Virus record (IMG/VR): IMGVR_UViG_3300027969_000405
Coordinates: 1-24,828 of that record
Source: a virus
Strand: one strand, 5' to 3'
DNA length: 24,828 nucleotides
A model generated the notes under the pieces. That model was not told the DNA's origin. It was given only the letters and a program-made list of their open reading frames with translations, and searched no databases. Position numbers and translations under genes: made by a program. Of the stretch, positions 14,582 through 22,552 are shown one piece after another; position 1 is the first letter of the stretch; each line of letters begins with the position of its first letter.

Positions 14582-15478
14582 ATGGACATGAAGAAAATTT
14601 TACAGGCGATTGATAGCGGTTCTACAAAGCCTGTAGAAAATTCCAGCGACATGAAGAAATTTTTGTCAGTTGTGACAGAAGGTGCTAATCCACATAAAGT
14701 TGCATTGCCAGTACAAATGGCCATGCAACATTATTCAACACCCGCTGTTGCTCAACCAAGAACTATTAAAGAAGTTAAAAAAACAGCAATGTCCAGTATG
14801 TTGTATCAATACTATACAGAAGCTGAACAACAAATAGCCGAACAAGATACAGCTAAGAAAGAAATTATTAGCGAACAGGCACGCCGTATTGCTCAACGTG
14901 TACTCGCAAAAGAAGGCGCACAACAAGCGGCCATTGCCATTGCTAAGAAAGCATCTGGCAAATACAACAAAGACGGTAAGCGTATCAAAGAGTCATTCAA
15001 CGGTGAATACGACGACGAAGCAGGTATGGCGCAAGGTAGTTTACATACTTTGCAAAGAGCCGTAGACGGATTAATGAATACCATCGAAGATAAAGATAAT
15101 TTGCCAGAATGGTGCCAAGAGAAGATATCGCTAGCTGAAGATTATCTAGTTACTGTGTGGGATTATATACAAAGTGAAAAATCACAAGGTAATGATCCAG
15201 AAATTAATGAACACAAAGATGCGTATCAACGTGCTCAAGATGCGGCTGAATACGGCCTACGCGGAGAACATCACAGAGATTTTAAACGTCAAGAAATGGA
15301 ACATGAACTTGGCCATGAAACAAATAACTATGCTGTTAGTATTAATGGCAAATCATGGAAAGTATTTGGTTCACGTCAAGAAGCAAATCGTGTTTCAAAT
15401 GCTATGGAACGTAAATATCCAGATAAGAAAATTGGGGTACACGCAACCGGTGCGGCAGTAAGTGAAGGTGCTAAGTAA
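14582..15478 (+). CDS. Late virion-type protein with a C-terminal INGKxWKVF domain
   Basis: The 298-residue product opens MDMKKILQAIDSGS. A second in-frame ATG at 14588 is an alternative start, and no strong Shine-Dalgarno sequence decides. The middle (about 80-130) is helical and rich in Ala, Gln and Lys. Residues about 150-200 form an acidic helical domain (LQRAVDGLMNTIEDKDNLPEWCQEKISLAEDYL). The C-terminus (about 248-298) has NYAVSINGKSWKVFGSRQEANRVSNAMERK and a HATGAAVSEG ending, a small domain that I recall from T4-like marine phage proteins. The stop overlaps the Dps start by one base (TAATG). A structural or packaged role is inferred from the late block. Confidence 0.65.
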   Translation: MDMKKILQAIDSGSTKPVENSSDMKKFLSVVTEGANPHKVALPVQMAMQHYSTPAVAQPRTIKEVKKTAMSSMLYQYYTEAEQQIAEQDTAKKEIISEQARRIAQRVLAKEGAQQAAIAIAKKASGKYNKDGKRIKESFNGEYDDEAGMAQGSLHTLQRAVDGLMNTIEDKDNLPEWCQEKISLAEDYLVTVWDYIQSEKSQGNDPEINEHKDAYQRAQDAAEYGLRGEHHRDFKRQEMEHELGHETNNYAVSINGKSWKVFGSRQEANRVSNAMERKYPDKKIGVHATGAAVSEGAK

Positions 15479-15924
15479 TGGACGAACTAGTCAAAGCGGT
15501 AAAGATAGCATTTGCCAGTGAAAATGTCTACTATGTTAAGGCATCTTCTTTTCATTGGAACGTTGAAGGATCAAACTTTCCACAATATCATACTTTATTA
15601 GATACTATCTATAACGAAGTATACGGAGCACGTGATGCATTTGCTGAAAATATTCGTAAATTAGGTGCATACGCACTTGGTAGTAATACAGCATTTTTAA
15701 AATACAGTGCAATACAAGAAAGTAACTCAGTACCAGCACCAGAAGCAATGCTTGCCGAACTACTAGCAGACAGTGAAAAAATTGCTAAATTTATGAAAGT
15801 AGTATTCGATCTTGCAGAACAAAACGGCGAACACGGACTAAGTAATTTTATTGCAGATCGTCAAGACGCACATAAAAAACATGCATGGATGCTACGTAGC
15901 ACTTTAAAGAATACAGGAATTTAA
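15478..15924 (+). CDS. dps: Dps-like ferritin-family protein with complete ferroxidase site
   Basis: The 148-residue product is a Dps/ferritin-like four-helix protein. The ligands of the Dps inter-subunit ferroxidase centre all fit: His26 (HWNVEG), His38, Asp42, Asp53 and Glu57, with the spacing of Listeria Dps (H31, H43, D47, D58, E62). The family oxidises Fe(II) with hydrogen peroxide, stores iron in a 12-subunit shell and can protect or bind DNA. There is no lysine-rich N-terminal tail of the E. coli type, so DNA binding would need another mechanism. It sits between two virion-type genes, with a one-base overlap upstream and a one-base gap downstream, so it is a late gene. Confidence 0.9.
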   Translation: MDELVKAVKIAFASENVYYVKASSFHWNVEGSNFPQYHTLLDTIYNEVYGARDAFAENIRKLGAYALGSNTAFLKYSAIQESNSVPAPEAMLAELLADSEKIAKFMKVVFDLAEQNGEHGLSNFIADRQDAHKKHAWMLRSTLKNTGI

Positions 15925-15925
15925 A

Positions 15926-18673
15926 ATGGATTTGAAAGCACTTTTAAATAAATTAGATACTATTGATCAACGTCAAGTGTTGTTGGAAAGTGCCATTGTG
16001 ATTGAGGAAGTGCTAGATTACGATTTACAATTATTAAAAGAATCATATATTGCTTTGATGGAGCGAGTTCGTAGAAAAGAACTAGAAGCCATAGCAACCA
16101 TACAAGATGCTAATGCACGTAGAAGACAGCTTGGACAACTAGCAATGAAACACGACTATCCTGGAATATTTGATCCAGTGAATGGTAAGTGGGTCGATGC
16201 TAAAGGCGAGTATGCATGGTTCGGGCCTTATAAAGCCGAAGTTGAACAAATGGAAAAAGACGGTTTAGTTCCTGACATAGCAAAGACCAGTGCATTTTTT
16301 GGATTGATGGGCAAGGACGAACGTGAAGCGTTCAAAGCAAGTAATGTAAATCGTACTAAGTATGATTTGATTGACGATGCAGATGACATTATTACTCAAG
16401 CATTAAAAAGCAAAGCTGTTCGATATGATGAGTCTGCTCCTAATGGTAAACTTGCTCAAGCATTAACAGAAGGATTTGGTTATATATTTACACCTTTAAA
16501 AGAAAGCATTACAGTTGACCAAGCTAAAAAATTATACGGAATAATCGACATACTTTCCAAGGATGCAAAATATGCCGACGATAAAGAAGTACAAGAGTTA
16601 CTTACCAAATATCAAGAATATAAAAAATATAGAACTGTACTAGTAACAGCTATAAAATCAGCTATTGCTGAATTCAAAGCCGTATTAAATCCATCGGCTA
16701 CTCCACTTAGTGAATCAAAACAGTTTTTAAAAGAACAAGTATATCTTATTGAAACTGAAAATAACGGCATTAGCGCAGTACACATTTATTATGATGCTGA
16801 CGGAAACCCTGTTGAATACATTATTACAGAAGATATCGAAGCGTTTGGTCGCGGACTTGGTGCTGGACTTACATTTGGTTGGAGCGACAATGCTGTTGCC
16901 AAAATAATATCCATGTACAAAGGTACAAAATACGGTGATGAATTATTAAAGCAATTAGAAGCCAGCGAAGCGGCCAAGAAACGTAGTCCTGTTTGGTACT
17001 TCACCGGAAACGCCGCAGGAACCATAGGATCGACTGCTATTATTCCTGGCAGTGGATTGATTGTAGGTACAGCAAAAGTTGTAGGAGGGATCGCGGCACA
17101 AACCGCAAGCGATAAGTATCTGCGTGTTCCACACAATGCAAAATATGCCGGCGATGCAATGACTAAAAAAGATGCAGATGCCGTTAAAAAAGTACAAAAA
17201 TCTGTGGGCGTAAATCCAACTGGCGTACTAACTCCTGATGATGCAAATACTATTCAACAAAAAGGCACAGCTATTTCTAACACATCTGCAGGCGGTAAGT
17301 CGTACGTAGATACCTCTGGCACTACTGTAACATCTGATGCTTCAGCAGAAGGAGGGCCAGAACAACAAGCCGCTATGAAAGAATTCTTTGCTATGGTCGG
17401 TGTTAAAGACATGGCAGAATTAAAAACTAAACTTCCAAAAGATCTTAATCAAGCTGGCGAGTATGTGGCAAAAGTATTGGGTGTTACTGCTCAAGCTCCG
17501 GCCGCTAACGAATCTATAATTTATTCAAGTATGTCAGATACAGAACGTATGACTTACTTGCGTGATAAATTGTCACAATTTGATGAAGGTAAAGATCTTG
17601 GCGGGTTAGGAGTTTTAAGTCGATTTGCGGCTCGATTTGGAATTGGTACTGCCGAAGCCAAGGCATTGTATGCATTGGAAAAAATAGCTGGCAAAGAAGC
17701 AGACGAAATTGTCATAGCCGCGAGAGGTACTCCTGGTTTTGGTAATGTAACGCTTGGGCCAAGAGCCGCAGGTATTGACTCAGGTACATGGAAACTAGTT
17801 CCAGGCACCGACGGAAAGACTTGGATAAACACTACCACTCAAAGAAGAGCAGACGTAACAGATTTAGCAAAACAAGCAGAAGCAGATTGGAAATTATTAG
17901 GTAGCCCACGTCCAGTACCTGCACCAACAACTGCACCAACAACTGCACCAACAACTGCACCAACAACTGCACCAGCACCAGCACCTGGAGCAGGAGCAGT
18001 GACATTTAATGCTGGTAAACAAGTTGCATCTGCTGAAATACAAGGTGTAAAATATGTTAAAGACAAGGCAGGCAATTGGTTTAGAGCAGAAGCTAATGGT
18101 ACGTTTACACAAGTTACAAAAAACAAACTACTAACTAAGTTAGCGGCCGCGGAAGTTAAAACTCCTATAATGGCAAGAATGGCGGCTAAATTTCCTAAAA
18201 CAGTAGTCGCATTGGGTGCAATTGGAGCAGTTGCTAAATTTGGTTGGAATTACAAGTGGTGGTTAGTTATGGCTGGACTTGTAGCCGGTGCTTACTTTGT
18301 AAATCAAGATAACAACCCCAATCCTAACAGCAACGGTAGCGACTCTAACCAAAAAGTAGATGCAGAAGAAGTAGCTAGACGAGAAAAAGAAGAAGCTGAA
18401 AGAAAAGCCAAAGCGGACGCTGATGCAAAAGCAAAGACTGAACAAACAAGTAAAATACAAGCCAACGGTGCTAAACTACAAAAATTAATTACAGAATTGG
18501 TTGCTATGTATCCAGTCGATGATATCACTAATGAATTAAAGACTCAAGTAGACGAATTATTCAAACAGGCCAACTATGTGCCAAACAGCATGGGTTCAGG
18601 TGATGCGCCAAAAGCCGCTACCAACAGCAACAACAAAGGCAACGCAGACAATTGGTTAAACGCTAGGTATTAA
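15926..18673 (+). CDS. Large membrane-interacting virion-type protein
   Basis: The 915-residue product starts one base after dps. The N-terminal 300 residues are mostly helical with several (L/I)xES sites. Residues about 305-395 are Gly-rich and hydrophobic (GRGLGAGLTFGWSD; GNAAGTIGSTAIIPGSGLIV). Residues about 415-448 resemble a peptidoglycan-binding-1-type repeat (AVKKVQKSVGVNPTGVLTPDDA), a weak match. APTT repeats (667-683) form a linker. A second hydrophobic span (about 760-793) is followed by an Asn-rich and charged helical tail. Two membrane-capable regions in a late protein suggest an internal protein that contacts the host membrane during DNA delivery, but this is inferred. It is followed by a hairpin terminator. 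Confidence 0.7.
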   Translation: MDLKALLNKLDTIDQRQVLLESAIVIEEVLDYDLQLLKESYIALMERVRRKELEAIATIQDANARRRQLGQLAMKHDYPGIFDPVNGKWVDAKGEYAWFGPYKAEVEQMEKDGLVPDIAKTSAFFGLMGKDEREAFKASNVNRTKYDLIDDADDIITQALKSKAVRYDESAPNGKLAQALTEGFGYIFTPLKESITVDQAKKLYGIIDILSKDAKYADDKEVQELLTKYQEYKKYRTVLVTAIKSAIAEFKAVLNPSATPLSESKQFLKEQVYLIETENNGISAVHIYYDADGNPVEYIITEDIEAFGRGLGAGLTFGWSDNAVAKIISMYKGTKYGDELLKQLEASEAAKKRSPVWYFTGNAAGTIGSTAIIPGSGLIVGTAKVVGGIAAQTASDKYLRVPHNAKYAGDAMTKKDADAVKKVQKSVGVNPTGVLTPDDANTIQQKGTAISNTSAGGKSYVDTSGTTVTSDASAEGGPEQQAAMKEFFAMVGVKDMAELKTKLPKDLNQAGEYVAKVLGVTAQAPAANESIIYSSMSDTERMTYLRDKLSQFDEGKDLGGLGVLSRFAARFGIGTAEAKALYALEKIAGKEADEIVIAARGTPGFGNVTLGPRAAGIDSGTWKLVPGTDGKTWINTTTQRRADVTDLAKQAEADWKLLGSPRPVPAPTTAPTTAPTTAPTTAPAPAPGAGAVTFNAGKQVASAEIQGVKYVKDKAGNWFRAEANGTFTQVTKNKLLTKLAAAEVKTPIMARMAAKFPKTVVALGAIGAVAKFGWNYKWWLVMAGLVAGAYFVNQDNNPNPNSNGSDSNQKVDAEEVARREKEEAERKAKADADAKAKTEQTSKIQANGAKLQKLITELVAMYPVDDITNELKTQVDELFKQANYVPNSMGSGDAPKAATNSNNKGNADNWLNARY
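17921..17968 (+). repeat. Four perfect copies of a 12-bp tandem repeat GCACCAACAACT
   Basis: The unit encodes Ala-Pro-Thr-Thr and is followed by an imperfect Ala-Pro run. Copies are identical at DNA level, so the tract is probably prone to slippage. In-frame changes would only lengthen or shorten the linker. Confidence 0.95.
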
Positions 18674-18679
18674 TTAAAT

Positions 18680-18705
18680 AAATGGCAGATTAATTTCTGC
18701 CATTT
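18680..18705 (+). terminator. Hairpin terminator after the late block
   Basis: AAATGGCAGA (18680-18689) and TCTGCCATTT (18696-18705) form a perfect 10-bp stem with loop TTAATT, 7 bases after the stop of the 915-residue gene. The U tract is short (TTT then CC), so efficiency may be modest. The stem is symmetrical, with A residues on its left side, and it could act on either strand. Confidence 0.65.
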
Positions 18706-18771: not shown

Positions 18772-19029
18772 ATGTCAGGACGTTCATACGGTGCAGAAGA
18801 AAAGGCAAAACTAGAAAGATTGATTAGTGAAGGTTCTACAGTACTTCGCGAAATTGAAGATTTATCAGAAGGCTTGAAAGAAACAGTTAAGGCAGTGGCA
18901 GAAGAACTCAATGTGAAACCCAGCGTTATTAATCGTGCTATCAAGATTGCACACAAAGGTGATTGGACTGCGCATAATGAAGATTGGGCAGAAATTGAAG
19001 CTATTTTAGATATCACAAAACGTATCTAA
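18772..19029 (+). CDS. dsbA: DsbA-like dsDNA-binding protein
   Basis: The 85-residue product is helical and charged: about 1-45 is helical and acidic/basic (EEKAKLERLISEGSTVLREIEDL), followed by a VKAVAEELNVKPSVINRAIKIAHKGD segment that suits a helix-turn-helix-like DNA-binding unit. Length and pattern match T4 DsbA (89 residues), where a similar DELGVDGKMFNRLLALYHKDN segment occurs (recalled, not searched). T4 DsbA binds double-stranded DNA and can stimulate late transcription. It has its own sigma70 promoter and strong Shine-Dalgarno sequence. The assignment is moderate because the protein is small. Confidence 0.7.
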   Translation: MSGRSYGAEEKAKLERLISEGSTVLREIEDLSEGLKETVKAVAEELNVKPSVINRAIKIAHKGDWTAHNEDWAEIEAILDITKRI

Positions 19030-19035
19030 TAAATA
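19028..19035 (+). promoter_or_regulatory. Weak candidate late-type octamer AATAAATA before the polymerase gene
   Basis: AATAAATA overlaps the stop of the dsbA-like gene and lies 73 bases before the polymerase ATG. It fits the NMTAAATA pattern of other sites here, but is AT-rich and may be chance. Transcription from 18719 could also serve the polymerase gene. Confidence 0.3.
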
Positions 19036-19050
19036 TTATATGAAAGGTTG

Positions 19051-19095
19051 GCGGGCCATAAACCGCATCGAGGTATTTGCAAGCCGTAAATTGCA
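19051..19095 (+). promoter_or_regulatory. Tandem hairpins with matching 8-nt loops, putative gp43 translational operator
   Basis: Hairpin 1 is GCGG (19051-19054), loop GCCATAAA (19055-19062), CCGC (19063-19066). Hairpin 2 is TGCAA (19078-19082), loop GCCGTAAA (19083-19090), TTGCA (19091-19095). Stems differ entirely, but both loops are 8 nt and differ at one base. Hairpin 2 ends three bases before the GGAG (19099-19102) of the polymerase gene. T4 gp43 represses its own translation through a hairpin with a 5-bp stem and an 8-nt loop just before its start, the same geometry as hairpin 2. Confidence 0.65.
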
Positions 19096-19107
19096 TATGG
19101 AGAACTA

Positions 19108-21777
19108 ATGAGCTATGTAGACGCATGGTTTGACCGTAGTAACGATGTTATTAAAGTGGTCGAACGCAACAAGAAAGGTGAAAGGGAATTCAGAGACATT
19201 CCTGTACGCCACACATTTTACTATAAAGACGCCCGCGGAAAGTATCTTTCAATTTACGGTGACGCTCTAAGCAAAGTTGTAGTCAAAAGTACCAAAGAAC
19301 TACGCAAAGAACAAGCAATCAATTCAGGTAAACAATTATTTGAATCAGATATCAATCCAATCTTTGTAACACTTAGCGAAAATTATCTCAATGCAGACGC
19401 TCCTAAACTAAATGTAGCGTTCTTTGACATTGAGGTGGACTTTGATCCAGAACGAGGCTATAGCACACCAGATGATGCGTTTATGCCTATTACTGCTATC
19501 GCTGTTCACCTACAGTGGATGGAAACTATGGTGTGTTTGGCAGTTCCGCCTAAAACGCTGACCATGGAACAAGCTACAGCCATGGTGGAAGAGTTTCCAA
19601 ATACCATGCTGTTTAAAACAGAAGCGGAGATGCTGGATGTATTTCTAGACTTGATTAAAGATGCAGATATTTTAACTGGTTGGAATTCGGAAGGTTATGA
19701 TATTCCCTATACTGTCAATCGTGTTACTAAGTCACTAAGCAAAGATGATACCCGTCGTTTTTGTTTGTTTGATCAATATCCTAAACGCAGAGAATATGAA
19801 AAGTTTGGTCGAGATTCAGTTACCTATGACCTGGTAGGTCGTGTACACTTGGATAGTCTTGAACTGTATCGCAAATACACATATGAAGAACGTCACAGCT
19901 ACAGATTAGATGCTATTGCGGAATATGAACTGGGTGAACGTAAAACACAATACGAAGGCACACTGGATCAACTTTATAATCATGATTTTAAAAAATTCAT
20001 TGAATACAACAGGCAAGACTGTGCGCTTCTTGATCGCCTAGACAAGAAGCTTAAATTCCTAGACCTTGCCAATACATTGGCGCATGAAAACACAGTACTG
20101 CTACAAACCACAATGGGTGCTGTGGCTGTGACTGAACAGGCCATCATTAACGAAGCCCACAGACGTAACATGCAAGTACCCAATCGTACCAAGATGGACG
20201 ACCGTGAAGAAAACACAGCGGCCGCAGGTGCGTATGTTGCTTATCCTAAAGAAGGCATTCATGACTGGATTGGTTCCTTAGACATTAACAGTCTTTATCC
20301 CAGTGCCATTCGTGCGCTTAACATGGGGCCGGAAACTATTATTGGCCAACTACGTCAGACTATGACTCAAGAGTACATCGATAACAAGATGGCTAAAGGT
20401 TCTAGTTTTGCGGCATCGTGGGAAGGTATCTTTGGTTCATTGGAATATACTGCTGTGATGAATCAAGAGATTGGCACAGATATTACTATCGATTGGGAAA
20501 ACGGACAAACTGATGTCATCAGTGCGGCAGAAGTGTATAAGTTAATATTTGACAGTCATCAACCCTGGGTACTAAGTGCTAACGGCACTATCTTTACTTA
20601 CGAGAAGGAAGGTATCATTCCTGGATTGCTAAAGCGTTGGTATGCTGAACGTAAAGAGATGCAGGCCAAACTTAAAGACTGTATTAAGACAGGTAACAAG
20701 ATTGAAGAAGAATACTGGGATAAACGTCAGCTAGTTAAGAAGATTAACCTAAATAGTTTGTATGGTGCTATTCTTAATCCCGGCTGTAGATTCTTTGACA
20801 AGCGTATTGGACAGTCAACTACACTGACAGGTCGTCAGATTGTTAAACACATGGCGGCCAAAGTGAATGAGATTGTTGCTGGAGATTATGACTATCGCGG
20901 CAAGGCCATTATCTATGGCGATACTGACTCGTGTTACTTCTCAGCGTATAAGACGCTACAAAAAGATATTGATGCTGGCAACATCGAATGGACCAAAGAA
21001 AATGTAATTGCATTATATGATAATATCGGCGAAGAAGTTAATACAACTTTTCCGCAGTTTATGTTGGATACATTTCACGTGCCAAAAACACGCGGTGAAG
21101 TTATCAAAGCGGGTCGTGAGATTGTGGGTAGTAAGAGTTTGTTTATTACCAAAAAGCGTTATGCCGTGCTGTACTATGACAAGGAAGGCAAACGGGCAGA
21201 CGTAGATGGCAAACCTGGTAAGATCAAGGCCATGGGCTTGGATCTGAAGCGTAGTGATACGCCGGAATTTATTCAGAACTTTTTGAGCGATGTACTTGAA
21301 AAGGTCTTAACAGGAGCCACCGAAACAGATGTATTAGCACATATCAGTGAATTTAGATTGAGATTTAAAAGTAGGCCGGGTTGGGAGAAAGGCAGTCCAA
21401 AACGTGCCAACAAAGTTACTGAATATCAAGCTAAAGAAGAAAAAGCAGGTAAGGCTAATATGCCTGGACATGTTCGTGCAAGTATTAACTGGAATACATT
21501 AAAACGTATGTTTGGTGACAAGTACAGTATGAATATCACAGACGGGCAAAAAGTTATTGTTTGTAAACTAAAACAAAATCCTATGGGATTTACATCAGTC
21601 GCATATCCTGTAGACGAATTACGTTTGCCACAATGGTTTAAAGACATGCCGTTTGATCATGAAGAAATGGAACAGACTATTATTGATAACAAATTAGATA
21701 ACTTAATTGGCGTATTGAAATGGGACGTTCGTAGCACAGAAGAAAAGAATACTTTTAATTCACTATTCGAGTTTTAA
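19108..21777 (+). CDS. 43: Family-B replicative DNA polymerase (T4 gp43-like)
   Basis: The 889-residue product (T4 gp43 is 898) carries exonuclease and polymerase motifs in order: Exo I FFDIEVD (D107, E109), Exo II NSEGYDIP (D198), Exo III YNRQDC (D304), motif A DINSLYPS (392-399), motif B KKINLNSLYG (544-553), motif C YGDTDS (603-608) and a KKRYAVL segment after it. All catalytic aspartates of both active sites are present, so it should synthesise and proofread phage DNA. The C-terminus, NTFNSLFEF, resembles the clamp-binding peptide at the end of RB69/T4 gp43. The clamp is encoded downstream at 22596. GGAG lies six bases before the ATG. Confidence 0.98.
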   Translation: MSYVDAWFDRSNDVIKVVERNKKGEREFRDIPVRHTFYYKDARGKYLSIYGDALSKVVVKSTKELRKEQAINSGKQLFESDINPIFVTLSENYLNADAPKLNVAFFDIEVDFDPERGYSTPDDAFMPITAIAVHLQWMETMVCLAVPPKTLTMEQATAMVEEFPNTMLFKTEAEMLDVFLDLIKDADILTGWNSEGYDIPYTVNRVTKSLSKDDTRRFCLFDQYPKRREYEKFGRDSVTYDLVGRVHLDSLELYRKYTYEERHSYRLDAIAEYELGERKTQYEGTLDQLYNHDFKKFIEYNRQDCALLDRLDKKLKFLDLANTLAHENTVLLQTTMGAVAVTEQAIINEAHRRNMQVPNRTKMDDREENTAAAGAYVAYPKEGIHDWIGSLDINSLYPSAIRALNMGPETIIGQLRQTMTQEYIDNKMAKGSSFAASWEGIFGSLEYTAVMNQEIGTDITIDWENGQTDVISAAEVYKLIFDSHQPWVLSANGTIFTYEKEGIIPGLLKRWYAERKEMQAKLKDCIKTGNKIEEEYWDKRQLVKKINLNSLYGAILNPGCRFFDKRIGQSTTLTGRQIVKHMAAKVNEIVAGDYDYRGKAIIYGDTDSCYFSAYKTLQKDIDAGNIEWTKENVIALYDNIGEEVNTTFPQFMLDTFHVPKTRGEVIKAGREIVGSKSLFITKKRYAVLYYDKEGKRADVDGKPGKIKAMGLDLKRSDTPEFIQNFLSDVLEKVLTGATETDVLAHISEFRLRFKSRPGWEKGSPKRANKVTEYQAKEEKAGKANMPGHVRASINWNTLKRMFGDKYSMNITDGQKVIVCKLKQNPMGFTSVAYPVDELRLPQWFKDMPFDHEEMEQTIIDNKLDNLIGVLKWDVRSTEEKNTFNSLFEF

Positions 21778-21778
21778 T

Positions 21779-22552
21779 ATGAAAATTATAATTGCAGGAT
21801 ACGGATTTGTTGGAAGGGCGGTGGCTAGTGCGTTACAAACTAAACACGAACTAGTCATTATCGATCCAAAATATAACGATAATCGAATCACAGACCATAT
21901 AGATGCAGACGGCATTATCGTCTGCGTGTCTACTCCGACTACCGAAAATGGTATTTGTGATGTAAACAATATTGCCAATGTATTAGATGTAGTTCCATTT
22001 TTTATGCCTGTTATGATTAAAAGTACATTAACTCCTCCTAATGTACAAGGGTTCAAAGAGATTTACGAAAATCACAGTATTGTTTACAGTCCTGAATTTT
22101 TAAGGGCTAATAGTGCTGAGGCAGATTTTGCCAATCAAAAATATATTATCGTAGGTGGAGAAGATCCAGAAGGATTTTGGCACGAATTATTTACTACCAC
22201 ATTGCCCAATTGCAAAATGATTTTTCAATGCAGTGAGGAAGAAGCGTGTATGATCAAATATACTGTAAATTGTTTCCTTGCCCTAAAGGCCAGTTACTTT
22301 AATCAAATAGCAGACATTTGTGATAACAACAAAATGGACTACGATATCGTAAGACACATTGTAAGTCAGGACGCTAGGATTGGAGCAGGGCATACACTAG
22401 TACCGGGTCCAGATGGACAGCGAGGATGGGGAGGTGCATGTTTTCCCAAAGACACCAAAGCATTTTTGCAGTGGACCAACACTATTGGAATGCCGGCAAC
22501 ATTGGTAGAATCATCTATCCAATACAACAATAAAGTAAGAAAAAACTCTTGA
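21779..22552 (+). CDS. Nucleotide-sugar dehydrogenase (UDP-glucose dehydrogenase-like) without C-terminal domain
   Basis: The 257-residue product has a Rossmann NAD-binding motif GYGFVG (7-12), VCVSTPT (48-54), YSPEFLRANSAEADF (103-117), the IKYTVNCFLALK helix (159-170) and WGGACFPKD (217-225) with the catalytic Cys221. These are the motifs of UDP-glucose/GDP-mannose dehydrogenases, which oxidise the C6 hydroxyl of the sugar twice. Normal enzymes are about 390-440 residues. Here the third, sugar-nucleotide-binding domain is missing, and the frame ends cleanly shortly after the catalytic region. It starts one base after the polymerase stop. Its TGA overlaps the -35 box of the clamp promoter. 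It may be a minimal form or have another substrate. Confidence 0.85.
   Translation: MKIIIAGYGFVGRAVASALQTKHELVIIDPKYNDNRITDHIDADGIIVCVSTPTTENGICDVNNIANVLDVVPFFMPVMIKSTLTPPNVQGFKEIYENHSIVYSPEFLRANSAEADFANQKYIIVGGEDPEGFWHELFTTTLPNCKMIFQCSEEEACMIKYTVNCFLALKASYFNQIADICDNNKMDYDIVRHIVSQDARIGAGHTLVPGPDGQRGWGGACFPKDTKAFLQWTNTIGMPATLVESSIQYNNKVRKNS

Follow-up and report, generated by a model that had tools for sequence, protein, structure and literature searches.

The 24.8 kb IMG/VR virus record IMGVR_UViG_3300027969_000405, analysed over its whole length and here called the window, carries two tandem RNA hairpins in the leader of its gp43-like DNA polymerase gene. As judged from their sequence, each can fold together with a short upstream triplet as a compact H-type pseudoknot, with a GGY/GCC helix of 3 bp, a stem of 4-6 bp and an A-rich loop 3, and the element is probably a cis-acting control of gp43 translation. 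By the same sequence comparison, the element is present in the window phage and in hundreds of uncultured relatives, its shape being kept while its letters change. Both hairpins lie between the stop codon of a DsbA-like gene and the gp43 ATG, at 19051-19095, exactly where a first-pass annotation of the window had placed them. That annotation missed part of the feature, since both units start earlier, each at a GGU triplet 5' of its hairpin.

In the window sequence alone the hairpins could be due to chance, and the loop word GCCRTAAA is not over-represented there (2 found, 2.2 expected); it is the comparison with relatives that decides. Related polymerases were collected from IMG/VR by five protein searches and two DNA pattern searches, and both hairpins were found at the same place in nearly all close relatives. 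The first-pass annotation had described unrelated stem sequences under conserved loops and had proposed aligning related leaders to look for covarying stems. The stems do covary strongly: in an alignment of 49 diverse leaders (A1), 97.5% of stem cells are paired, nine pairs change on both sides and there are 161 double-change cells, a result matched by 0 of 500 shuffles. Pairing falls to 24-39% in controls in which the partners are slid, and RNAalifold recovered both stems unprompted from these leaders. All four window stem pairs of the distal unit (PK1) change on both sides in relatives, as does an additional, fifth outer pair that roughly two thirds of the leaders possess, and in the proximal unit (PK2) 4/5 stem pairs change on both sides with 100% of cells paired. 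The distal stem has a one-base bulge in some relatives, for example L065, L072 and L087.

A search pattern that fixes only part of hairpin 2 gave 119 matches in IMG/VR, all of them 5' of gp43 (in a few, gp43 comes after an inserted open reading frame, ORF) and all with complementary stem bases, in 48 distinct sequences. Run over bacterial genomes totalling 257 Gb, the same pattern produced 32 matches, only four of them with complementary stems and none close to gp43, which is the chance level; this control also shows that stem complementarity is not forced by the pattern. We regard it as practically certain that the tandem structure is a real RNA, this and the later gradings being judgements and not computed values.

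The hairpin loops take part in a second pairing. A conserved GGY triplet, mostly 2-3 nt 5' of each stem, is complementary to the GCC of the loop. Among unique leaders, the distal unit combines GCC with GGY in 170 and GCU with AGY in 13, to which L429 (AGC...GCU) was added by eye. A permissive scan for distal GCU loops that was blind to the 5' arm, and for which only the 18 matches located 5' of gp43 are informative, found AGU in 18/18. On a tree of 213 gp43 DNA rows the distal loop changed between GCC and GCU seven times, and GGY and AGY changed alongside in 7/7 (sign test, p = 0.016). The proximal unit is nearly invariant in GGY/GCC, the L601 and L621 lineages having AGU/GCU instead; five proximal rows listed as unpaired reflect a parsing fault, as GGU does precede their stems. 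Loop bases thus pair outside the hairpin with covariation, in the seven distal co-changes and in the L601 and L621 proximal units, and since the loop GCC co-changes with the upstream GGY we take the two to be paired and the units to be pseudoknots. The units run in the order GGY, a loop 1 (L1) of 2-3 nt, a stem of 4-6 bp, GCC directly past the 5' stem arm, and an A-rich loop 3 of 5 nt, and such an order, with such lengths, is that of a classical H-type pseudoknot. That the GGY/GCC pairing is real we consider very likely. A cross-pairing of the second GGY with the loop of hairpin 1 was rejected: changes in that loop follow the first GGY while the second remains GGU, and a GCC right after the 5' stem arm suits an upstream partner better. 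Across relatives the loop consensus is GCYNNAAN, with near-invariant loop-3 adenines and with positions 4 and 5 varying freely in hairpin 2, and not the GCCRUAAA that the annotation had proposed to look for.

The loop-to-loop distance is 28-30 nt in 182/186 tandem leaders. In most unique leaders the gp43 Shine-Dalgarno sequence (SD) starts 0-4 nt past the proximal stem or overlaps it; in the window the stem ends at 19095 and GGAGA starts at 19099, the three-base gap that had been noted from the sequence. In the outgroup leaders L648, L650 and L670 the 3' arm of the stem (CGGA or TGGA) supplies part of the SD. This overlap, and the position at the SD generally, would suit a structure acting in cis without any ligand, as a fixed brake, a folding timer or an mRNA-stability element. 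We find that improbable, as a passive brake would need neither the near-invariant GCYNNAA loop nor the 28-30 nt spacing across diverse phages.

A marine sister group has the SD-proximal unit only, with an unrelated hairpin upstream. The SD-proximal unit is thus the more widely kept, and the distal pseudoknot appears to be a clade-specific addition or replacement. The marine and outgroup leaders L432-L467, L514-L593 and L637-L673 have a different distal hairpin, of the GCUC..GAGC or CGCC..GGC type, with a single SD-proximal pseudoknot. For these distal hairpins (GCUC..GAGC and similar) a 5' pairing like that of the GGY units was looked for by eye and did not hold.

The element is confined to the polymerase gene. 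Models of the tandem (R1) and of the single unit (R2) were searched against 15 contigs of 92-372 kb: in each contig R1 gave one tandem match, with E values of 3e-14 to 3e-18, and R2 two unit matches. Every one of these lies in the gp43 leader, and neither model gave anything with E below 0.01 elsewhere in these contigs. The gene upstream is not DsbA-like in 46/180 tandem leaders and the element is still at gp43, on which ground we rejected the motif as part of the dsbA-like gene. In L060, L063, L067, L070, L075, L094, L105 and L428 the element stands upstream of an inserted ORF that precedes gp43, and in L031 the intact element and gp43 have between them a reverse-strand ORF (L031:204-947, -) with a DUF723/treble-clef zinc finger match, which we read as homing-endonuclease-like; absence of the motif from these leaders was only apparent, the ORFs having been inserted between motif and gene. 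In L060, L063, L070, L075 and L094 the insert is a small Cys-containing ORF whose stop overlaps the gp43 ATG, an arrangement in which gp43 translation may stay coupled to the element. Longer inserted ORFs were seen in L105 and L428. A spot that accepts insertions, one of them a DUF723 ORF, could in principle owe its conservation to a function in DNA, as a replication origin, protein binding site or recombination hotspot; the covarying free-sequence stems and the strict coupling to the gp43 SD point instead to RNA, and we give a DNA-level function almost no weight.

Seven named phages whose polymerases are related (Phosso, Atu_ph07, PA5oct, Vibrio 2.275.O, RaK2, SCTP-2 and XacN1) lack the element before gp43, and whole-genome unit matches in those seven were weak (best E = 0.035). 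Searches of the leader against named phages with blastn gave chance matches only, Rfam gave no match above the gathering score and only sub-threshold chance matches, and no earlier description of the tandem element was found in the open-licence literature. The window polymerase matches PHROG 262 DNA polymerase (E = 5e-197), Pfam DNA_pol_B and PDB entry 1clq (E = 1.7e-57), and shares 26% identity with T4 gp43 across 692 aligned positions; every match to a named phage is below 60% identity, the best being about 51% among the matches listed.

Small RNA elements of comparable design are known among riboswitches. PreQ1-I is a small H-type pseudoknot riboswitch at the SD, guanidine-II and mini-ykkC consist of hairpins in tandem whose loops are conserved and whose stems vary freely, and tandem aptamers gate SDs in other systems. 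The element described here shares with these the small pseudoknots at the SD, the tandem arrangement, the conserved loops and the free stems, and its compact pseudoknots with near-invariant loop-3 adenines resemble small translational riboswitches of the preQ1-I type. It differs from them in having no Rfam match and only a DNA polymerase as its context. It is doubtful, then, that the two units are aptamers which bind a replication-tied metabolite, such as a nucleotide, and gate the SD unaided by protein: no Rfam riboswitch matches the element, positions 4-5 of the proximal loop vary freely, and its location was found to be solely 5' of gp43, although a riboswitch typically serves a number of metabolic genes.

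Translational control of gp43 is what the element's place and structure argue for, and we hold it to be likely. The first-pass annotation had seen protein-recognised hairpin loops here; a translational operator is indeed the best reading, given the position and the covarying stems, although the GCC of the loop is not merely a set of free bases but is paired with GGY. In T4 and RB69, gp43 is a translational repressor of its own message, and its hairpin operator occupies the corresponding position; the loop contains UAAC in T4/RB69 and UAAA in RB49 (PMC3014915). Read from the sequence, the T4 hairpin is AGCCU-AAUAACUC-GGGCU, in agreement with the earlier comparison of hairpin 2, likewise a 5-bp stem with an 8-nt loop, with that operator. 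Both elements belong to the same gene and lie by the ribosome-binding site. The 3' part of the loop here is NNAAA (UAAA in the window), the 5' part is GCC and positions 4-5 vary; GCC in the loop sets it apart from the T4 loop, as had been noted, and the polymerases are only 26% identical. The T4 operator is one hairpin with no pseudoknot known (PMC3014915), unlike the two units with an extra GGY arm found here.

A protein other than gp43, phage- or host-encoded, might bind the pseudoknots instead, for instance an SSB, a ribosomal protein or a repressor of the RegA kind. In T4, the gene 32 leader has an H-type pseudoknot that is recognised by gp32 itself, and RegA is a trans-acting repressor of replication genes (PMC3014915). 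In T4, T2 and RB69 the gene 32 operator consists of one pseudoknot some 67 nt upstream and, after it, UUAAA repeats along which gp32 spreads (PMC3014915, PMC535899). Our element likewise places an H-type pseudoknot in the leader of a phage replication gene, which gene 32 uses for translational autoregulation, but the gene is gp43, there are two units and the proximal one adjoins the SD; no UUAAA series lies between pseudoknot and start codon in the window. T4 RegA, moreover, binds many messages without RNA structure (PMC3014915), whereas the element here occurs once per genome and always in the gp43 operon, and a ligand of this other kind seems unlikely. By analogy, the element would resemble the T4 gp43 operator in its action and that of gene 32 in its architecture, with membership of either not supported.

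We therefore favour gp43 itself as the putative ligand, because T4 and RB69 gp43 repress themselves through an operator at the same place and because these genomes hold no second target. GGY would pair with the loop GCC and stack on the 4-6 bp free-sequence stem, and the A-rich loop 3 would span the short helix. Folded at the SD and held by its ligand, the proximal pseudoknot would block landing of the 30S subunit, and the distal unit, at its fixed 28-30 nt spacing, would most likely provide a second, cooperative contact. The ligand would most likely be gp43 that exceeds the DNA primer-template, so that the polymerase would repress its own synthesis as in T4. This whole reading, including gp43 as ligand and autogenous repression, we consider reasonably probable. 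More tentatively, the tandem units might act as a two-site cooperative RNA switch that binds two polymerases (or a replication metabolite) for an ultrasensitive shut-off of the polymerase, the second pseudoknot having replaced the unrelated distal hairpin of the sister clades.

Several observations weigh against this account of an RNA operator. The minimum free energy fold of 19025-19125 is not better than those of shuffled sequences (z = +1.19, weaker than most) and has hairpin 2 without hairpin 1. The GGY/GCC helix is just 3 bp, frequently with a terminal U-G pair, and two leaders break its rule, L008 (UGU with GCC) and L180 (GGU with UCC); L447, listed as a third exception, is a mis-parsed single-unit leader and was not counted. 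An inserted ORF precedes gp43 in L105, L428 and L031; for L105 and L031 an apparent SD of its own would uncouple gp43 from the element. The element is absent from the L436, L442, L443 and L453 leaders and is therefore not essential. Lastly, some T4-related gp43 proteins do not autoregulate (PMC3014915).

Table 1. Coordinates of the tandem units, their parts and the adjoining genes in the window.
Feature	Position	Strand	Remarks
Distal pseudoknot unit (PK1)	19046..19066	+	Starts at GGU, 5' of hairpin 1
PK1 GGU	19046-19048		
PK1 L1, UG	19049-19050		
PK1 stem arms, GCGG and CCGC	19051-19054, 19063-19066		
PK1 loop, GCCATAAA	19055-19062		GCC 19055-19057 (pairing with GGU), AUAAA 19058-19062
Proximal pseudoknot unit (PK2)	19072..19095	+	Starts at GGU, 5' of hairpin 2
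PK2 GGU	19072-19074		
PK2 L1, AUU	19075-19077		
PK2 stem arms, UGCAA and UUGCA	19078-19082, 19091-19095		
PK2 loop, GCCGTAAA	19083-19090		GCC 19083-19085, GUAAA 19086-19090
SD of gp43, GGAGA	19099..19103	+	3 nt past PK2; seen in the sequence
gp43-like family B DNA polymerase, 889 aa	19108..21777	+	ATG at 19108; presumed target and presumed repressor
DsbA-like gene, 85 aa	18772..19029	+	Upstream of the leader; phrog_12534, E = 1.8e-17

The DsbA-like gene also matches phrog_639, a transcriptional regulator, and its match to Pfam Phage_DsbA is weak and below the cut-off. Between it and a 915-aa ORF at 15926-18673 (+), which has no PHROG or Pfam match, lies a hairpin, AAATGGCAGA/TCTGCCATTT, at 18680-18705 that scored as a minus-strand terminator; in relatives such as L060 and L070 the counterpart is a hairpin and T-run followed by a TTGACA-type promoter. 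A ferritin-like protein is encoded at 15478-15924 (+; Pfam E = 8e-22). The ORF at 21779-22552 (+), 2 nt past the gp43 stop, matches only the NAD-binding and central domains of a UDP-glucose/GDP-mannose dehydrogenase.

The tandem units constitute a strongly covarying pseudoknot family at the polymerase gene of a wide range of uncultured phages, on contigs of up to 372 kb, which could enter Rfam. A short, defined RNA and its natural variants, the compensatory AGU/GCU units and the single units of the marine group, make the recognition of RNA by the polymerase, and cooperativity in the control of phage replication, directly testable.
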